In this document: positions 16,334 to 48,963 of the stretch, in pieces
How positions within the stretch are numbered: position 1 is the stretch's first letter
How the letters are laid out: each line of letters begins with the position of its first letter
Virus record (IMG/VR): IMGVR_UViG_3300017763_000028
Coordinates: 1 to 49,081 of that record
DNA length: 49,081 nt
Strand: one strand, 5' to 3'
Source of the DNA: a virus
The notes under the pieces: generated by a model
Told to the model about the DNA's origin: nothing
Seen by the model: only the letters and a program-made list of their open reading frames with translations
The model's database searches: none
Made by a program: the position numbers and the translations under genes

Positions 16334-16350
16334 GACCACCTTAGCGTGGT
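16334..16350 (+). other. Small hairpin ahead of the portal promoter
   Basis: ACCAC and GTGGT pair around a six-base loop immediately before a TATAAATA box. There is no T run, so it is not a standard terminator. It could slow transcription or protect the end of the tail-tube message. Confidence 0.35.
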
Positions 16351-16357
16351 ATAAATA
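16350..16357 (+). promoter_or_regulatory. Late promoter box (TATAAATA), leaderless geometry
   Basis: A perfect TATAAATA ends exactly six bases before the A of the portal ATG at 16363. No Shine-Dalgarno sequence is present. Confidence 0.7.
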
Positions 16358-16362
16358 TTAGT

Positions 16363-17898
16363 ATGGAAATTTTAGGATTTGAAATATCCCGTAAGAAGGA
16401 TGACTTAAGAGCAAAGGAGTTGCCGAAGGCACCTTCTTTTGTTCCACCAGTTGATGATGACGGTACACCAGTCATACAACAACAAAGTGGATTCATAGGT
16501 GGCGGAGCATATGGTGCTTACGTCGATATGGAAGGTGGTATCAAGAATGAGGCAGAACTCATTCGTAGATATCGTGAGGTATCTTTGGTGCCAGAATGTG
16601 ATTCTGCAATTGAAGATATAGTTAATGAGTGTATCACATCGGATAGTTCTGATAGGATAGTCACACTCGACCTCAGAGATGTTAAGCTCTCTGATAGTAT
16701 CAAAGGTAAGATACAAGACGAGTTTTACAACATCCTATCAATGATGAAGTTCAATCAGAACTCTCATGAATTATTCAGAAAATGGTACGTAGATGGAAGA
16801 GTATACTTCCATAAAGTCGTCGACGCTAAAAATGTTAAAAGAGGCATAGTAGACTTAAGAAACATTGACCCAATTAAGATTAAGAAGGTCAGAAACATTG
16901 AAAAGGAAAGAGACCCTAAGACTAAAATCGAAAGGATTTCAAAGATAGAAGAGTTCTATGTTTTCAATGATAAAGGGTTTGATAAATCCAGTGCAGCTGA
17001 AGGAAGCACTGTACGAATTGCACCCGAGGCAGTAACATATACGACTTCGGGATTACTTGACTACACTAAGAACGTAGTCATCGGGTATCTGCACAAGGCA
17101 TTGAAGACTGCAAATCAGTTATCAATGATGGAAGATGCACTTGTTATCTATAGGATTTCAAGAGCTCCCGAGAGAAGAATATTCTACATCGACGTAGGTA
17201 ACCTTCCAAAAGCAAAAGCAGAACAGTATCTTGCTGATGTAATGAACCGATACAAGAATAAGTTGGTTTACAATGCAGATACAGGTGAAATCAAAGATGA
17301 TAGAAAACATATGAGTATGTTAGAAGATTTTTGGTTACCTAGAAGAGAAGGTGGTAGAGGAACAGAGATTACTACATTGCCAGGCGGACAAAACCTAGCA
17401 GATATAGATGATATCGAATACTTCAAGAAGAAGTTATATCAGTCTCTAAATGTACCTTCATCTAGAATGGAAGCAGACAATGGGTTTAACATGGGTCGTG
17501 CTTCTGAGATTTCTAGAGACGAACTTAAATTTAATAAGTTCACTAATAGACTTCAGAAGAAGTTTGGAAGAGTTTTTACAGACATCCTTAAGACACAATT
17601 AGTACTAAAGGAAGTCGTAACAGGTGAAGAGTTTGATAAAATAAAGGACTTTTTCCTGTATGATTATGCAACAGACAACCACTTTACAGAGTTGAAAGAT
17701 GCAGAAATTTTAAGAGAGAGATTAGATACTCTCAGTCAGGCAGCTGATTATGTTGGTAAATACTATTCAGATGAATATATCAGAAAGTATGTACTAAGAC
17801 AAACAGAAGAAGACATAAAAATAATTGATGCCCAAATCAAGAAAGAAGGAAGTGATGAGGGTGGAGATGATAACGAAGATGACTTCGGTGGATTTTAG
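16363..17898 (+). CDS. 20: Portal vertex protein gp20
   Basis: The protein has 511 residues (T4 gp20 has 524). GGIKNEAELIRRYREVSLVPECDSAIEDIVNECI, VIYRISRAPERRIFYIDVGNLPKAKAEQYL and LPGGQNLADIDDIEYFKKKLYQSLNVPSSRM are diagnostic for T4-type portals. The dodecameric ring is the DNA channel and the start point of capsid assembly. The C-terminus is a Gly, Asp and Glu rich tail. The ATG lies six bases after a late box and has no ribosome-binding site, so this message may be leaderless. Confidence 0.95.
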   Translation: MEILGFEISRKKDDLRAKELPKAPSFVPPVDDDGTPVIQQQSGFIGGGAYGAYVDMEGGIKNEAELIRRYREVSLVPECDSAIEDIVNECITSDSSDRIVTLDLRDVKLSDSIKGKIQDEFYNILSMMKFNQNSHELFRKWYVDGRVYFHKVVDAKNVKRGIVDLRNIDPIKIKKVRNIEKERDPKTKIERISKIEEFYVFNDKGFDKSSAAEGSTVRIAPEAVTYTTSGLLDYTKNVVIGYLHKALKTANQLSMMEDALVIYRISRAPERRIFYIDVGNLPKAKAEQYLADVMNRYKNKLVYNADTGEIKDDRKHMSMLEDFWLPRREGGRGTEITTLPGGQNLADIDDIEYFKKKLYQSLNVPSSRMEADNGFNMGRASEISRDELKFNKFTNRLQKKFGRVFTDILKTQLVLKEVVTGEEFDKIKDFFLYDYATDNHFTELKDAEILRERLDTLSQAADYVGKYYSDEYIRKYVLRQTEEDIKIIDAQIKKEGSDEGGDDNEDDFGGF

Positions 17899-41987: not shown

Positions 41988-42010
41988 CTCTTAACAGAGT
42001 TTGAAAAAGA

Positions 42011-42034
42011 GGGACGTTTATCGTCCCTTTTTTG
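42011..42034 (+). terminator. Rho-independent terminator
   Basis: GGGACG pairs with CGTCCC around TTTAT and is followed by six T. It separates the replication/regA block from the curli-like operon. Confidence 0.9.
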
Positions 42035-42056
42035 CGCTTACAAGAAAGTAAAAAGA

Positions 42057-42063
42057 ATAAATA
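42057..42063 (+). promoter_or_regulatory. Late promoter box (ATAAATA) for the curli-like operon
   Basis: The box lies right after the terminator and ends exactly six bases before the A of the ATG at 42069. It is the only clear promoter I see for the next 6.9 kb. Confidence 0.65.
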
Positions 42064-42068
42064 ATTGC

Positions 42069-42365
42069 ATGAATGAGATATTTGAGTTGATAGGTGAAGT
42101 GGGAGCCCCAATTGCTGGAAGCATAGTCATGGGATTCTTTATCTTTACTGTTATCAAACAAATCCTTGAGGGTGTTGTTGACGATATAAAAACGTTAACG
42201 ATGTTCTGCAAGTCCTTAGAAAACCGTGCGAGAACAATGTCAAATGAAATGATTAAGATTGACATGTTAGTTTCATCAGCACTTGAATTGAGACCCGACA
42301 TAGAACGTATTGCACGTGCAGAAAACTTTATAGAAGACGGTAAGCTCGACGTAAGAAGAGATTAA
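42069..42365 (+). CDS. One-TM protein, first gene of the curli-like operon
   Basis: The protein has 98 residues. A hydrophobic segment spans about residues 11-33 (VGAPIAGSIVMGFFIFTVIKQIL), followed by a charged helix (VDDIKTLTMFCKSLENRARTM, then IERIARAENFIEDG). The message would be leaderless. The next gene has the same TM-then-coiled-coil plan, so the two may work as a pair in the inner membrane. No family is recognised. Confidence 0.55.
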   Translation: MNEIFELIGEVGAPIAGSIVMGFFIFTVIKQILEGVVDDIKTLTMFCKSLENRARTMSNEMIKIDMLVSSALELRPDIERIARAENFIEDGKLDVRRD

Positions 42366-42366
42366 C

Positions 42367-42684
42367 ATGGAAACTGAAGTTGTTGAAGTTGTAGCAAATA
42401 CAGACCCCACGTTAGTTACTCTACTGAATGAATATGGTTTTCCTATTGTCATGATGGTTGGCCTGGGATATTTCATTTATTATATTTGGTGGTTTGTAGG
42501 TGAAAAACTAGAACCCGAAATAGAGAAACAGCATTTTGCACTTATCAAAGTTATTGACCAAGTGAGAATGTTAGACCAAGATTTAATTCGTTTACAACAA
42601 AAGGTAGACGTAGTTCTTGAATATAAAGAGAACGCAAAAAAGAAAGAGGTTAAGAATGCAGAAAATAGCAGCGATAATAATTAG
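42367..42684 (+). CDS. One-TM coiled-coil protein
   Basis: The protein has 105 residues. YGFPIVMMVGLGYFIYYIWWFVG (about 23-45) is the membrane helix, with Trp pairs at its end. A heptad-like helix (HFALIKVIDQVRMLDQDLIRLQQKVDVVLEY) follows. Its end overlaps the CsgF start by 29 bases. Its position suggests a partner in curli-like export or in lysis. Confidence 0.55.
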   Translation: METEVVEVVANTDPTLVTLLNEYGFPIVMMVGLGYFIYYIWWFVGEKLEPEIEKQHFALIKVIDQVRMLDQDLIRLQQKVDVVLEYKENAKKKEVKNAENSSDNN

Positions 42685-43117
42685 TATTTCTTTTGCACTT
42701 AGTGTAAGTGCAGATGAAATTGTTCACAAATTTAAAAGTCCAAGCTTCAGTGGAATAGGAATATCTGCACATTATCTTACAATTGAAAATCAAGAGAAGT
42801 CAAGACGTGATAAAATAAAGCAAGACTTGGAAGATGCAATTGCAAAAGCAGATAGGGAAGCTCAGAATACAACGCTTGCCAAATTTTTAAGGAACGTAGA
42901 GAGTAGAATCTACGCTCAGTTAGCAAAACAGTTAGTTGAAAATATGTTCTCAAATGGAACTGCAGCTAATTATGGTACATTTGTAATGGAAGGAAACACT
43001 GTTACATATGAAAGAATGACTGGGGAAGATGGTGTCGATTTCATAAGATTAACAATTGTTACTGAAGATGGAACAACAACAGTTTTAGATATACCAGTAG
43101 GAACAGGAAGCTTCTAA
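42656..43117 (+). CDS. csgF: CsgF-like curli assembly factor
   Basis: The protein has 153 residues from the ATG at 42656, where a signal peptide begins (MQKIAAIIISISFALSVSA, cleaved before DEIV); the frame is open further up inside the previous gene. The mature part starts with the F-x-NP-F-like FKSPSFSG, has a helical insert rich in Lys and Asp, then AQLAKQLVENMFSNG, FVMEGNTVTYER and a C-terminal DGTTTVLDIPVG. This order fits CsgF, which plugs the CsgG pore to make a second constriction and exposes the nucleator outside. It lies four bases before csgG, the order seen in bacteria. Confidence 0.8.
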   Translation: MQKIAAIIISISFALSVSADEIVHKFKSPSFSGIGISAHYLTIENQEKSRRDKIKQDLEDAIAKADREAQNTTLAKFLRNVESRIYAQLAKQLVENMFSNGTAANYGTFVMEGNTVTYERMTGEDGVDFIRLTIVTEDGTTTVLDIPVGTGSF

Positions 43118-43120
43118 ACA

Positions 43121-44029
43121 ATGAAAAATATACTAACAGTAGGACTACTAGTTCTACTCATGAGTGGGTGTGCTAGTATTCCCAGCATGACAGACTCATG
43201 TTCTTCCATTGTGATGGAAAGGTTAGGTACATGCGTTGAAGAAGCAGAAGTGGTAAATATACCTACTTATCAAGAGTTGTCTGATTTACCAGCAGCGGAT
43301 ACGATGCCAGTAGTTGCAGTATACGCTTTTCAAGATAAGACAGGACAACGTAAGAGTAAAGATGGAATTGCATCTTTCTCTACTGCAGTAACCCAAGGTG
43401 CAGAATCATTTTTGATTGATGCCTTGAAGACTGCTGGAAAAGGTAAATGGTTTAGAGTTGTAGAAAGAACAAACTTAGATGCACTAATAAGAGAGCGTCA
43501 AATAGTTCGTTCTGCAAGAGAAGACTTTGCAAACCAAGATGGAAATGAGAATGCTCCAACAGGTATTCAACCATTGCTGTTTGCTGGTATCCTGCTTGAC
43601 GGTGGGATAGTTGGTTATGATACTAACATTGAAAGCGGTGGTAGAGGCGCAAGATACTTAGGTATTGGTTCAAGTGCTTCCTATCGTAGGGATGTTGTCA
43701 CCATATCGTTGAGAGGAATATCAACTTTAACAGGTGAAATTTTGCTGAATGTACAGACTCAGAAAACGATTCTTAGTACAGGTGGTGGTTATGATGTATT
43801 CCGCTTCGTTGATATGGATACGAAGTTAGTGGAAATGGAAGATGGCGTCGCAGCCAATGAGGGAGTTACAAAAGCAACTCGTTCAGCGATAGAACTTGCC
43901 GTCTTGGAACTAATATACCAAGGTCATGATAGAGACTTTTGGATAATAAAGGATGGACATCGACACCCACATGGAACTCATGGAAGGAACGAGAAACATT
44001 CAACAGAGGAAATAACAGATGAAGAATAA
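43121..44029 (+). CDS. csgG: CsgG-like curli secretion lipoprotein pore
   Basis: The protein has 302 residues (E. coli CsgG has 277). MKNILTVGLLVLLMSGC is a lipoprotein signal with the acylated Cys at 17. The core VVAVYAFQDKTGQRK, FSTAVTQGAESFLIDALK, VVERTNLDALIRERQIVRSA, GGIVGYDTNIESGGRGARYLGIG, STLTGEIL, KTILS and FRFVD follows the CsgG family very closely. CsgG forms the nonameric outer membrane channel for curli subunits. The C-terminal 30 residues are a His/Asp-rich tail (HRHPHGTHGRNEK) beyond the usual end. It overlaps the next gene by 11 bases. Confidence 0.93.
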   Translation: MKNILTVGLLVLLMSGCASIPSMTDSCSSIVMERLGTCVEEAEVVNIPTYQELSDLPAADTMPVVAVYAFQDKTGQRKSKDGIASFSTAVTQGAESFLIDALKTAGKGKWFRVVERTNLDALIRERQIVRSAREDFANQDGNENAPTGIQPLLFAGILLDGGIVGYDTNIESGGRGARYLGIGSSASYRRDVVTISLRGISTLTGEILLNVQTQKTILSTGGGYDVFRFVDMDTKLVEMEDGVAANEGVTKATRSAIELAVLELIYQGHDRDFWIIKDGHRHPHGTHGRNEKHSTEEITDEE

Positions 44030-44747
44030 AATATTACTCATGATGTTAACATTAGGAGCGTCAACTTTAGCATTTGCTGGAGCAGACGATAATGAAGTTT
44101 GGTTACAACAATCGGGTACTGCGCTTACTTTAAACATAACACAAAAAGGTTATGGTAACAAAGTTGGTGGTGATGACTTTAGTGGTACGTCAATAGATAT
44201 GTTATTGACTGGTGCTACCAATAGTTTAACACTAGTACAATTCGGTGACAGTAACAAACTATACGGCCCATTCATTGCAGATAGTTCAACAGTAAATTTA
44301 ACTTTTACTGGTGATTCAAACTCAATGGATTGGAACGTTGGTTATCAAGGTTCAGCAGATAACTTAAATATGTTAGGAGCTGTTACAGGTTCATCTAACA
44401 CATTTGATATTGATGTTGGATACGACCAGTCTGCAGAATACTTAAACTGGGACTTAGTAGTAGGTGGTTCAAGTAATGTATTCACAACAAAGATAGATAG
44501 TGACAATGCTGTTTGGAACTGGACTGTTACAGGTTCAACAAATGACATTAATACTATTCAGGCAGACGCAACAGATAATAAAATTACTGCAGTCTTAACT
44601 GGTTCAGGCAATGATATAGATATCATTCAAAAATCGGGTTCAGATACAGGTTGTCCAAGTGGTCAGTCATGTAGTGGTATTATTGATGTGAGCTTCGTGA
44701 CTTCTAATGCAAATATTGACATCGTTCAAAAAGACGATAACGATTAA
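44019..44747 (+). CDS. Curlin-like repeat protein 1
   Basis: The protein has 242 residues with a signal peptide (MKNKILLMMLTLGASTLAFA). The mature protein is built of strand-turn units such as LTLNITQKGYGNKV, SLTLVQFGDSNKL and VNLTFTGDSNSM, which resemble the Ser-x5-Gln-x-Gly-x-x-Asn spacing of curlin repeats. It is Asn, Asp, Gly and Ser rich, almost without Lys, and has one Cys pair (C206 and C212 region) near the end. It ends with IDIVQKDDND. The neighbouring CsgG/CsgF pair is the natural exporter. Whether it forms amyloid is untested. Confidence 0.75.
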   Translation: MKNKILLMMLTLGASTLAFAGADDNEVWLQQSGTALTLNITQKGYGNKVGGDDFSGTSIDMLLTGATNSLTLVQFGDSNKLYGPFIADSSTVNLTFTGDSNSMDWNVGYQGSADNLNMLGAVTGSSNTFDIDVGYDQSAEYLNWDLVVGGSSNVFTTKIDSDNAVWNWTVTGSTNDINTIQADATDNKITAVLTGSGNDIDIIQKSGSDTGCPSGQSCSGIIDVSFVTSNANIDIVQKDDND

Positions 44748-45846
44748 TTTTCTTCTGATTGGTTCACTTGCAATTGCAGCTGAACCAATTGGTGAAATAG
44801 TCGAACAGAAAGGATACGCGGGTTTACAGAGAGACGGTTCAGAAACCATTCTCTCTGCATCCGAGTTACCCGATGTGCTGATGTATGATACAGCACAAAC
44901 CGTAAACGGTAGAATGAAAATCCAGTTCAAAGGAACTGAAGAGTTGGATTTAACAGAACATACCAAGGTTTGGATAGACGAGGTTTATTATGACCCCGAC
45001 CCATCCAAGTCCAAAATGGCCATAAGAATGGCACAAGGCACCGCCCGATTTGCTTCGGGTTTTGGTGGAAAAATTAAGAAAGCTAACATAAATATAACTA
45101 CCCCGACTGCACAGATAACAGTCAACGGCACCGACTTCACTACAAGTATTGATGAAATCGGAAGGTCACTTGTTATATTGCTGCCTGATAAATGGGGAGC
45201 TCCTTCGGGAAGTATTTTAGTTAGTAATGCAGGCGGTGAAGTATTATTAGATGAGGCCTATCAAGCAACTATGGTTTCTACATATGACTCATCACCAACT
45301 AAACCAGTAGTGGTTAATGGGATTACACCCAGTTTAATTGACAACTTATTCATTGTCAGTCCACCCGACGAGGTGAATGAACAAGTTGCAGAAGAACAAA
45401 GAAGTAACGAGAATGATAGTAACAATGTTCTTGATGTAGATTTCTTAGAGTTCAATGACCTAGAAGAAAATTACTTTGAGGATGATGAATTAGAATACAC
45501 GGAACTCGACAGAGATTTATTAGATGTCGATTTCCTACAGGATTTACTAGATGTTGTCTTGGATATTGACCGTAAGGTTGGTATTGATAGAGAAGTATCT
45601 AATGCCTTCGGAGTGGTTCGTATTGACGGAACTCTGCCAGGCTTTGATAAAGACACTCAATACAATACAATTGTAGACAAGGGTCTTGGTCAGATATGGT
45701 TCTACAGGGAAGTGAATGGAATTATTTCTATTAGACTCCCTATATATGCTCAAGCAAATATTAGAACTGTAACAGACGAAAAGGAGTCACTAATAAGGGT
45801 GGGTGATGGTTCGTCTCTAAATATCACCATCACACAAACAAACTAG
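44707..45846 (+). CDS. FecR-domain exported protein
   Basis: The protein has 379 residues, opening with a signal peptide (ITINFLLIGSLAIAA, cut before EPIG). The first 180 residues have FecR-type features: NGRMKIQFKGTEELDLTEHTKVWID, MAIRMAQGTARFASG, INITTPTAQITVNGTDFTT and SILVSNAGGEVLLDE. The middle (220-290) is very acidic (NDLEENYFEDDELEYTELD). The last residues SLNITITQ resemble half a curlin repeat. It overlaps the end of curlin-like protein 1 by 41 bases. Such exported FecR-like proteins often bind or sense surface structures. Confidence 0.75.
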   Translation: MQILTSFKKTITINFLLIGSLAIAAEPIGEIVEQKGYAGLQRDGSETILSASELPDVLMYDTAQTVNGRMKIQFKGTEELDLTEHTKVWIDEVYYDPDPSKSKMAIRMAQGTARFASGFGGKIKKANINITTPTAQITVNGTDFTTSIDEIGRSLVILLPDKWGAPSGSILVSNAGGEVLLDEAYQATMVSTYDSSPTKPVVVNGITPSLIDNLFIVSPPDEVNEQVAEEQRSNENDSNNVLDVDFLEFNDLEENYFEDDELEYTELDRDLLDVDFLQDLLDVVLDIDRKVGIDREVSNAFGVVRIDGTLPGFDKDTQYNTIVDKGLGQIWFYREVNGIISIRLPIYAQANIRTVTDEKESLIRVGDGSSLNITITQTN

Positions 45847-46008: not shown

Positions 46009-46650
46009 ATGAAAAGAATTTTATTATTAATTTTATTGACACCTGTAGCATGGGCTGGGGACAACCACGTCCATGTCGAACAGGTTGCAAGCGGTGATGG
46101 GACAGACCTTAACATATCCCAAGTTGGTTTTGATAACACAATCAACTTCACATTTGCACACGCAAACAATACCTTCAACTTATCACAACAAGGAAGTGGT
46201 AATTCTATTTCTTGGGTATCCTATTGGGGCTCTGGAAAAAGTTGGGGTGGTGATGTAGATGGAACAAACAATACAGAATCAGTTCAACAACTAGGTGGTG
46301 CAACATATGGTAGACACATATGGGGTAATAGTAATACAGTAAATGTATATCAGAGTGGTACACATACACACAACCTAGACATTCATGCAGATAGTGTAGA
46401 CCATGATTTACATCAATCGGGTAGTGGAAGTCACTACAACCATACATATTTTTATGGTAATACAGATGGTTCTGATACTAACATATCTCAAACAGGGAGT
46501 GCAAATCATAACTCTCAAATCAGATTACAAGGTTCATATAAAACAGACTTGAATCTAACTCAGACTGGTTCTACAGCAAAGTCATACAATCTTACACAAA
46601 ATTGTGTAACTGCTGGTGGATGTACAATAAGTATTACACAGAGTGACTAA
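46009..46650 (+). CDS. Curlin-like repeat protein 2
   Basis: The protein has 213 residues. MKRILLLILLTPVAWA is the signal peptide, and I place the start at 46009 for that reason, since the frame is open a further 17 codons upstream. At least seven curlin-type units are visible: LNISQVGFDN, FNLSQQGSGNS, VQQLGGATYG, VNVYQSGTH, DLHQSGSGSH, NISQTGSAN and LNLTQTGST. It is His- and Asn-rich, and ends with TISITQSD, like protein 1 and the FecR protein. It is likely the main fibre subunit, with protein 1 as partner. Confidence 0.8.
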   Translation: MKRILLLILLTPVAWAGDNHVHVEQVASGDGTDLNISQVGFDNTINFTFAHANNTFNLSQQGSGNSISWVSYWGSGKSWGGDVDGTNNTESVQQLGGATYGRHIWGNSNTVNVYQSGTHTHNLDIHADSVDHDLHQSGSGSHYNHTYFYGNTDGSDTNISQTGSANHNSQIRLQGSYKTDLNLTQTGSTAKSYNLTQNCVTAGGCTISITQSD

Positions 46651-46815
46651 ATGAAACAGTGGTTATTTAACAAGATGGTTCCATATGCCATCCAATTCAG
46701 AGAGTGGTCAAAGGGGAAAACATGGATACAAATCCCATTGTGGATTTTTATATTATGGATGTTAGGATTTGCTAATCCTTACTGGTGTGTTTATCCCGTC
46801 TGCTGGATTCAGTAG
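46651..46815 (+). CDS. Small Trp-rich one-TM protein
   Basis: The protein has 54 residues (MKQWLFNKMVPYAIQFREWS). A hydrophobic stretch IPLWIFILWMLGFANPYW is followed by CVYPVCW, with a possible disulfide. It is unusually rich in Trp. Its stop overlaps the GTG chosen for the cyclase gene (TAGTG), which would couple their translation. Confidence 0.45.
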   Translation: MKQWLFNKMVPYAIQFREWSKGKTWIQIPLWIFILWMLGFANPYWCVYPVCWIQ

Positions 46816-48656
46816 TGTACAGCTGGAAGACAGTATTAGTAACAATAGGTTTACTATTTACACTTAAGATTTGGAACCCATACTTCATAGAGAATATCTC
46901 TTGGACATGGTTCGATTACTTACATCAACAACAAGGAGAATTTTATGTGGATGACATCGTTCTTGTCGACATCGACGAGAAGTCTCTTGAAACTTTTGGA
47001 CAATATCCTATACGTCGTGGTATTTACCGTGACCTTCTTCTTGATACCCATTATAGCAATACTCATATTTTTGGTATGCTATTTTCTAAACCCGACAGAG
47101 ACCCAACTCAAGACCCGATATTTGCAGAGGGATTAGTCAACCGTCTCACAATCCTTGGAGCTGCTCCAACATCACAAATTCAAAAAGGTTCTGCACCATT
47201 TGTAGGTAATTCAACATTTGGTGGTGGTAATCCAAAAGATTTTCTTTGGAACTTCGATGGAATCGTCTCACCCATCTCAATACTGATGGAAAATACTTAT
47301 GGGGTTGGAGTTGTGACGGCTACTCCAGCTGTCACTGGAACACCAAATTTTGATGGTACTACGCGGTCTGTACCCCTATTGGTTACGGCAAACGATGAAG
47401 TATACCCATCACTAATGTTAGAAGCTTTAAGAGCTCTTAAAGGTGAACCTAGTTATCAGACAAAGATTACACCCGAAACTGGTGTAGAGTGGGTACGGAT
47501 GGGAAGAGACAAACCGATAACCACCACTCCAACCAGTGATGTAATGGTATCCTACTGGAATAAATTCCATAGAATTTCTGCTGTAGATTTACCCGAATCT
47601 AATTTCGAAAATAAGATTCTCGTGTGGGGTCTGACTGCAGAGGGTTTGAATAATCCAGTTTCAACCCCAATGGGAGTAATGTATCCCCATGAAGTGCAAG
47701 CGAACCTGCTCCAAACCGTTTTGACAGGAGTTCAAATACAACAATCCTACTATCTTGAATCCTTAGAGTCTGTTCTTCTTCTGATAGTCCTACTAATGAT
47801 ATTGGGTTTGGTCTACAAAGCTCCCACACTTCTTTCGGGGGTAGGGAGTCTATTGCTTGTAGTATGCCAGATTGGCGGGAGTTATTATATTTGGACTTCA
47901 GAGCTCGTTCTTTTCGATACCTTCTTTTCATCGTTGGCCTCCTTAGTTGTTTTTGGACATGCATCATTTAACAAATACTATGTAACTTTCCAAGAAAAGC
48001 AACAAATCAAGAAGCAGTTCCAAAAGTATTTATCACCCGACATGATTGAAGAGCTTCAAAAACATCCCGAAAAATTGAAACTTGGTGGAGATAGAAGGGA
48101 GATGACCTTCATGTTTATGGACATATGTGGGTTCACCCCCATAAGCGAAGCGTTCATGAAGAATGATGACCCCGAAGGATTAGTTGAATTAATTAATAAA
48201 TTCCTAGACTTACAGACAAAAATTATTCTAAATAATGGTGGAACTATAGATAAATACATGGGCGACTGTATTATGAGTTTTTGGAATGCTCCCATGGATT
48301 GTCCCGACCATGCCGAGATGGCAGTGAAGTCTGCAGAAGAAATATTAATTGCAACCAAGGAACTCAATGAAGAACTTAAACCACTTAATCTCCCGCCTAT
48401 CAATGTCGGCATTGGTATTAATACTGGGGAGTGCATCGTTGGAAACATGGGGTCAGAACTTAGATTTGACTATTCCGTCATTGGAGATGCAGTTAACCTC
48501 GGAGCTAGACTCGAAAGCCAAACACGAAATTATGATGGGGTGGACGTGTTGTTGGGCGAAGCAACATATAGACAGTGTCCATCTAGAGCATTCTCAGAAG
48601 TTGATAGAATTACAGTTAAAGGAAAATCAGTTCCAGTCACAGTTTACACCATCTGA
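46815..48656 (+). CDS. CHASE2-domain class III nucleotide cyclase
   Basis: The protein has 613 residues from the GTG at 46815, which overlaps the preceding stop; a GTG at 46785 in the same frame would add ten. TM1 (about 5-18) is followed by an extracytoplasmic CHASE2 domain (DDIVLVDIDEKSL, RRGIYRDLL, then PHEVQANLLQTVL), then two or three TM helices (about 315-385) and a linker. The catalytic domain has FMFMDICGFT (metal Asp436), DKYMGDCIM (Lys480, Asp484) and IGDAVNLGARLE (Asn561, Arg565). These are the residues of an active adenylate cyclase-type enzyme. It would sense something outside the inner membrane and make cyclic AMP or GMP. Confidence 0.9.
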   Translation: MYSWKTVLVTIGLLFTLKIWNPYFIENISWTWFDYLHQQQGEFYVDDIVLVDIDEKSLETFGQYPIRRGIYRDLLLDTHYSNTHIFGMLFSKPDRDPTQDPIFAEGLVNRLTILGAAPTSQIQKGSAPFVGNSTFGGGNPKDFLWNFDGIVSPISILMENTYGVGVVTATPAVTGTPNFDGTTRSVPLLVTANDEVYPSLMLEALRALKGEPSYQTKITPETGVEWVRMGRDKPITTTPTSDVMVSYWNKFHRISAVDLPESNFENKILVWGLTAEGLNNPVSTPMGVMYPHEVQANLLQTVLTGVQIQQSYYLESLESVLLLIVLLMILGLVYKAPTLLSGVGSLLLVVCQIGGSYYIWTSELVLFDTFFSSLASLVVFGHASFNKYYVTFQEKQQIKKQFQKYLSPDMIEELQKHPEKLKLGGDRREMTFMFMDICGFTPISEAFMKNDDPEGLVELINKFLDLQTKIILNNGGTIDKYMGDCIMSFWNAPMDCPDHAEMAVKSAEEILIATKELNEELKPLNLPPINVGIGINTGECIVGNMGSELRFDYSVIGDAVNLGARLESQTRNYDGVDVLLGEATYRQCPSRAFSEVDRITVKGKSVPVTVYTI

Positions 48657-48963
48657 ACCAATCTCAACTAAGCAGTGGGCTACATTTCTCACATTACAAC
48701 TTGCAGATATCTATACAACTTATCGTGGACTTAAATACAATTGTGTTTATGAAATGAATCCGATTATTGGTGAACAACCATCAGTACCACAAATGTTTCT
48801 TGTTAAAACAATCGTTCTCTTGCCTGCAATCGAATCTGATATAAAACGAGAGTCTCTAACTCCACAAACTATGGATAATATAAATCTTTTAATGGCATTA
48901 GTTGTAGGTAATAACTATAATGTCTGGCATGGTGCAGAAAGAAATTGTTCAAAAAGGTCTTGA
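48601..48963 (+). CDS. DUF5658-like membrane protein
   Basis: The likely protein has about 120 residues. LADIYTTYRGLKYNCVYEMNPIIGE is close to the DxxTT...E-NP signature of a small membrane family (DUF5658-like). It is followed by QMFLVKTIVLLPAIES and a hydrophobic MALVVGNNYN segment. No ATG or GTG is well placed. The in-frame TTG at 48601 overlaps the cyclase gene end by 56 bases, and other choices are possible. It closes the curli/cyclase operon. Function unknown. Confidence 0.5.
   Translation: MIELQLKENQFQSQFTPSEPISTKQWATFLTLQLADIYTTYRGLKYNCVYEMNPIIGEQPSVPQMFLVKTIVLLPAIESDIKRESLTPQTMDNINLLMALVVGNNYNVWHGAERNCSKRS

Follow-up and report, generated by a model that had tools for sequence, protein, structure and literature searches.

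The closest described relatives of the locus analysed here are the type VIII secretion (curli) modules of pelagiphages, and the module itself, its lack of CsgE and the ideas of an open pore and of a role in lysis were published between 2020 and 2022 (PMC7029224; PMC9004378; PMC9599517). In one of these studies, CsgE was described as absent and an open pore was listed as one option (PMC9599517). In Escherichia coli, the constriction of the CsgG channel is formed by Tyr66, Asn70 and Phe71, and the N-terminal 27 residues of CsgF line the upper part of the CsgG lumen (PMC7304575), while among bacterial curli systems CsgE was reported to be absent from all Alphaproteobacteria (Dueholm et al., 2012; PMC3521004). 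That pelagiphages would equip curli-free ocean bacteria with a machine for fibre secretion is a puzzle, which is addressed here for one further viral locus.

Gene order, conservation and expression signals

The window, by which the whole stretch of DNA that was analysed is meant, is a viral record of 49,081 bases, corresponding to approximately one third of the 141–147 kb of its relatives. It is thus a fragment of its own genome, and the remaining two thirds were therefore judged by way of relatives, among them the complete genomes of HTVC008M and Melnitz. Terminase, tail sheath, portal and head scaffold genes were recognised in the window, which identify a T4-like marine phage, and its portal is closest to those of Pelagibacter phage Mosig, Methylophilales phage Melnitz and cyanophages (54–56% identity); no tRNA genes that could serve for host assignment were found. 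For comparison, approximately 80 IMG/VR loci were picked by CsgG similarity (55–100%), many of which are near-copies, and the bacterial sets comprised 66 csgG loci, 34 alphaproteobacterial csgG-carrying genomes and 197 Pelagibacterales genomes.

At least eight genes, all on the + strand, form a block in the order TM1-TM2-CsgF-CsgG-curlin-FecR-curlin-CHASE2/cyclase, which is the order of the pelagiphage type VIII systems (small gene(s)-csgF-csgG-curlin-FecR-curlin-cyclase), and the same block is found in HTVC008M and Melnitz. TM1 (42069..42365; phrog_18771, E=3.7e-24) and its paralogue TM2 (42367..42684; phrog_18771, E=9.9e-25) are followed by CsgF (42656..43117, from an ATG at 42656 to a stop at 43117; Pfam CsgF, E=3.5e-13), the outer-membrane pore lipoprotein CsgG (43121..44029; Pfam CsgG, E=1.9e-49), curlin-like protein 1 (44019..44747; NCBIfam CsgA, E=8e-4), a FecR-domain protein with a signal-peptide-like start (44707..45846; Pfam FecR, E=8.5e-9), curlin-like protein 2 (46009..46650; NCBIfam CsgA, E=5.4e-5; Pfam Curlin_rpt, E=0.025) and a protein with CHASE2 and adenylate/guanylate cyclase domains (46785..48656; Pfam CHASE2, E=1.3e-29; cyclase, E=3.1e-16). 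From TM1 through the FecR gene, adjacent genes abut or overlap. The preliminary description had placed a CsgF–CsgG pair at 42656–44029, and these coordinates are exact, with both proteins above the curated Pfam cut-offs (50.3 vs 25.8 bits for CsgF, PF10614; 168 vs 20.8 bits for CsgG, PF03783); it had omitted the neighbours in the same block, that is, the two curlin-like genes, the FecR-domain gene, the CHASE2-cyclase gene and the two small membrane-protein genes. A DUF5658-like ORF (48349–48963) that is conserved in part of the related loci lies after the cyclase gene, and its start is provisional because the ORF overlaps that gene.

In loci with sufficient room, every component was present on the expected side (TM1 in 72/72, TM2 in 77/77, CsgF in 78/78, curlin 1 in 74/74, FecR in 61/61 and the cyclase in 29/29), except for curlin 2, which was found in 50 of 51 viral loci, one locus being without a second curlin. 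These counts do not represent independent events, since the loci were selected by CsgG and include near-copies, but HTVC008M and Melnitz agree with them at 42–47% CsgG identity. The median dN/dS lies between 0.04 and 0.20 for every gene of the block, both curlins included, indicating purifying selection.

A terminator-like hairpin with a T-run (42010..42034), seen in the sequence and by a scan, separates the block from the upstream genes, and a T-run of at least five residues is located upstream of the block in 29 of 40 distinct related loci. Downstream of it, the T4-late-promoter-like motif AATAAATA (42056..42063) ends 5 nt before the first ATG. In 33 of 40 distinct upstream regions, the pattern NTAAATA, which we take to resemble T4 late promoters, is found no more than 20 nt from the start of TM1, compared to an expectation of ~1.2% per 20 nt. 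The exact sequence TATAAATA also occurs ahead of three virion genes of the window, those for tail sheath, portal and scaffold; at the start of the block in HTVC008M or Melnitz, no such motif is present. By its resemblance to T4 late promoters the pattern supports late expression, which had been suggested before and is plausible for the block. The spacing of 5 nt between motif and ATG is the same at the block (42056–42069) and at the portal gene (16350–16363); with a T4-like start site, the leader would be next to absent.

The CsgG–CsgF pair and the absence of CsgE and CsgD

Residues 47–278 of CsgG align with solved E. coli CsgG chains (E=7e-46), and the lipobox, stated to be kept in the preliminary description, is present as LMSGC, with C17 invariant in 12 aligned phage CsgG sequences. 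The constriction loop TGQRKSKDGIASFSTAVTQ (43340..43396) was located by alignment and a loop survey. Within it (TGQRKSKDGIASFSTAV), the constriction residues are conserved in part, as the counterpart of E. coli Phe71 is kept and Tyr66 and Asn70 are replaced; alphaproteobacterial CsgG loops are similar in length to the phage loop and likewise lack Tyr and Asn at these positions. The His-rich tail (43958..43999; HRHPH) is restricted to some clades and occurs in 23 of 49 distinct phage CsgG proteins, the remainder having other or shorter tails. As it is replaced or deleted in relatives that are ~80% identical, it is not a core gating part, and the earlier proposal that it signals altered gating was rejected. 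In the linker past the lipid anchor, CsgG carries two additional cysteines, C27 and C38 (43199–43234; residues 27–38), which are kept in most of the window's clade and are missing from HTVC008M and Melnitz.

In CsgF, the motif SPSFSG (42737..42754) corresponds to NPNFGG of the E. coli protein, a segment lining the CsgG pore. All 44 distinct phage CsgF proteins contain [NSG]P[SAN]F[SGN]G, and P29, F31 and G33 are invariant across the phage and bacterial rows of the alignment, so that SPSFSG is a putative N-terminal CsgG-binding, NPxFGG-like segment through which CsgF would contact CsgG. That this segment is retained argues against a published proposal in which the phage CsgF has lost its binding to CsgG. 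A low-confidence structural model of CsgF (pLDDT 65, pTM 0.30) suggests a signal-peptide-like start, the pore-binding motif, helices at residues 37–70 and 73–98 and a four-stranded sheet. The first long helix (42764..42865; model residues 37–70) corresponds to the helical insert from which altered gating had also been proposed. It is indeed longer than in E. coli, yet it is common to all 44 phage CsgF proteins and to a cellular relative (locus L091, see below), and some Methylobacterium CsgF proteins have an insert of similar length, which rules out a phage invention and does not favour altered gating. Compared to solved structures, the CsgF sequence of the window gave chance matches only, and no CsgF entry was among the hits of a structural search with the weak model (Z≤6.1), a result that excludes nothing.

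The window gave no CsgE match at a threshold as permissive as E≤10, a search in which the E. coli control was detected, nor did 12 other phage records at E≤1, including the complete HTVC008M and Melnitz. Likewise, the GerE (LuxR-type) domain, the DNA-binding part of CsgD, is absent from the window, HTVC008M and Melnitz, in agreement with the earlier observation that neither protein is seen. CsgE is also lacking from all 197 Pelagibacterales genomes and, as judged by the Pfam model, from all 34 alphaproteobacterial genomes that carry csgG. The block therefore differs from E. coli-type curli, for which CsgE is diagnostic, and conforms to the alphaproteobacterial type, in which csgF, csgG and curlin are present and CsgE and a CsgD-type domain are absent. 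The absence of CsgE is the norm for the alphaproteobacterial branch of curli systems, and since the lack belongs to the curli type, it offers no particular information on gating in the phage. The view that the missing CsgE betrays a broken or altered gate was hence abandoned, and so was a toxic open pore as the default reading, as numerous bacteria use csgG in the absence of CsgE, and cargo genes were never missing.

Cargo, phage-specific membrane proteins and bacterial relatives

In 50 of 66 bacterial loci, profiles built solely from phage curlins match curlin-like ORFs in the vicinity of csgG, with E values as low as 2e-13 where the locus is clearly cellular, and both phage proteins give a weak match to the NCBIfam CsgA family. 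With the Pfam Curlin_rpt model they score 12.7 and 15.0 bits, below the curated cut-off of 20.7, and their repeats are degenerate; this model misses 12% of known CsgA/B (Dueholm et al., 2012; PMC3521004), and among CsgA proteins a class whose repeats are degenerate has been described (PMC10192328), in keeping with the phage curlins. The strict curlin kernel motif is not enriched over shuffled sequences, while its looser parts N.....Q and Q.G..N are. An AF2 model of curlin-like protein 1 is an all-beta repeat (pLDDT 81, pTM 0.78), whose best fold matches among viral models are named 'Curlin associated'; Foldseek returned no match to solved structures at E≤0.001. On the strength of the matches in bacterial loci, the CsgA matches and the beta-repeat model, the phage pore most likely has its cargo in these two neighbours, and since curlin-like genes adjoin the pore gene in every locus with room, a pore acting alone is unlikely. 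Both curlins have a cysteine pair near the C-terminus. For Melnitz, missing csgA/B had been argued to point towards a role in lysis (Buchholz et al.; PMC9004378), but the GenBank record of this phage annotates two curlin repeat proteins, which weakens the premise of missing cargo, and curlins had already been found in other pelagiphages (PMC9599517).

The TM1 (98 aa) and TM2 (105 aa) proteins are related to each other, as the profile of each gene matches the other, and TM1 apparently consists of one membrane helix followed by a charged helical tail. The gene(s) before csgF have been labelled histidine kinase (PMC9599517), a label that does not hold for these two paralogues of ~100 aa, in which no Pfam or NCBIfam family was matched up to E=1 and no HisKA/HATPase domain was found. 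In the collection of sequenced phages, TM1 occurs only in curli-bearing phages, and neither TM1 nor TM2 was found in any of the 66 bacterial curli loci. The FecR-domain protein matches the FecR domain only, its weak NCBIfam match being the surface adhesin Lsa33, and together with the signal-peptide-like start this suggests that the protein is exported and is not the iron regulator FecR of the membrane.

A single one of the 66 bacterial loci, L091 (7483–13506 of a 705 kb contig labelled Hyphomonas sp. TMED17), carries the genes in the order of the phages, CsgF-CsgG-curlin-FecR-CHASE2-cyclase. Its surroundings look chromosomal and, as read from the translations, include TonB-receptor-like and oxidase-like genes. 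The L091 block has the long CsgF helix and lacks TM1 and TM2. According to PMC9599517, FecR and the cyclase do not occur within bacterial type VIII operons, a statement to which L091 is at least one exception. The CsgG of L091 lies among phage CsgG proteins on a long branch (96/84), which fits transfer in either direction; L091 was not accepted as the cellular donor, and it could be related to the donor or have taken up the block from a phage at a later time. Phage-type curli blocks were also seen on MAG contigs labelled Synechococcus, Saprospirales, Sphingobacteriales, Pelagibacter and others (L084–L090, L092–L094, L096, L098, L099 and L101), which are probably misbinned phage sequence.

Proposed function and comparison with described systems

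Taken together, the block is probably a curli (type VIII) secretion module like those of pelagimyophages, compact and of the CsgE-less alphaproteobacterial type, that is expressed late and places fibres on the infected cell. It would probably be turned on at a late stage along with the virion genes and rely on the Sec system of the host for export of the subunits; CsgG would form the outer-membrane pore, with the N-terminal segment of CsgF plugging its outer mouth and the helical and sheet part displayed outside, and the two curlin-like proteins would pass through as cargo and assemble into fibres. The FecR-domain protein and the CHASE2-cyclase may be accessory or signalling parts, and TM1 and TM2 may be phage-specific membrane parts. 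A benefit could lie in holding sibling cells together or in blocking superinfection. Against fibres stands the infection of OM43 with Melnitz, a phage with the same gene set, in which neither cytometry nor electron microscopy revealed clumping of the cells (PMC9004378), as do the degenerate curlin repeats, the lack of a match to solved structures and the weak CsgF model.

CsgG, with or without CsgF, might instead be a stand-alone pore that times lysis in a pinholin- or secretin-like manner or damages the cell, the curlins being incidental, as Buchholz et al. proposed for Melnitz (PMC9004378). The missing CsgE cap, the late-like promoter motif and a weak holin-like match of TM1 (phrog_4898, E=0.007) are consistent with this, but the curlin genes, which evolve under purifying selection, adjoin csgG wherever this could be examined, live bacteria with CsgG and without CsgE are common, and the premise of missing cargo is weakened by the Melnitz record. 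Moreover, an outer-membrane pore, unlike pinholins, does not depolarise the inner membrane, and a lysis pore is considered rather unlikely. That TM1 and TM2 replace the missing gate, or link the pore to the inner membrane or to the timing of lysis, is doubtful. Import of larger nutrients or cofactors during infection, as suggested for pelagimyophages (PMC7029224; PMC9599517), would be compatible with passive flux through an ungated pore, but leaves the conserved CsgF and two curlins unexplained, and the CsgE-less bacterial systems show that the lack of CsgE is no sign of import, which makes it improbable. A recently captured, functionless host fragment is hardly conceivable: in its favour, SAR11 genomes are without curli genes (CsgF was found in 1 of 197 Pelagibacterales genomes, on a 3 kb contig resembling phage loci), so that there is no host pathway to join, but the gene order is fixed across CsgG proteins down to 42–47% identity and dN/dS values of 0.04–0.20 contradict a loss of function.

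With this analysis, the absent CsgE is removed as a misleading clue and the clue of missing cargo is weakened, which brings the phage-specific features, TM1/TM2 and late expression, to the fore and narrows the question to fibre display versus a lysis pore.

Among described systems, the pelagiphage modules of the HTVC008M/Melnitz/HTVC023P type are closest, with the same gene order, two small genes before csgF and no CsgE, CsgC or CsgD reported (PMC7029224; PMC9004378; PMC9599517). The CsgG of the window is 47% identical to that of HTVC008M and 42% to that of Melnitz, and unlike these phages, the window has a clade-specific His-rich CsgG tail and a clear late-like motif at the start of the block. 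Alphaproteobacterial curli (PMC3521004) share CsgF-CsgG-curlin without CsgD and CsgE and a similar length of the constriction loop, whereas the phage blocks add TM1/TM2, FecR and the CHASE2-cyclase. With the E. coli CsgG-CsgF-CsgE system the phage has in common a homologous CsgG (residues 47–278), the N-terminal motif of CsgF and, according to the low-confidence model, the general plan of CsgF as presently understood (PMC7304575), i.e., a disordered N-terminus, helices and a four-stranded sheet; it differs in the absence of CsgE and CsgD, in the longer CsgF helix and in the replacement of Tyr66 and Asn70. To the published descriptions the present analysis adds, from sequence comparison, a conserved candidate late promoter, a conserved putative CsgG-binding motif in CsgF and the apparent lack of a kinase domain in TM1 and TM2.
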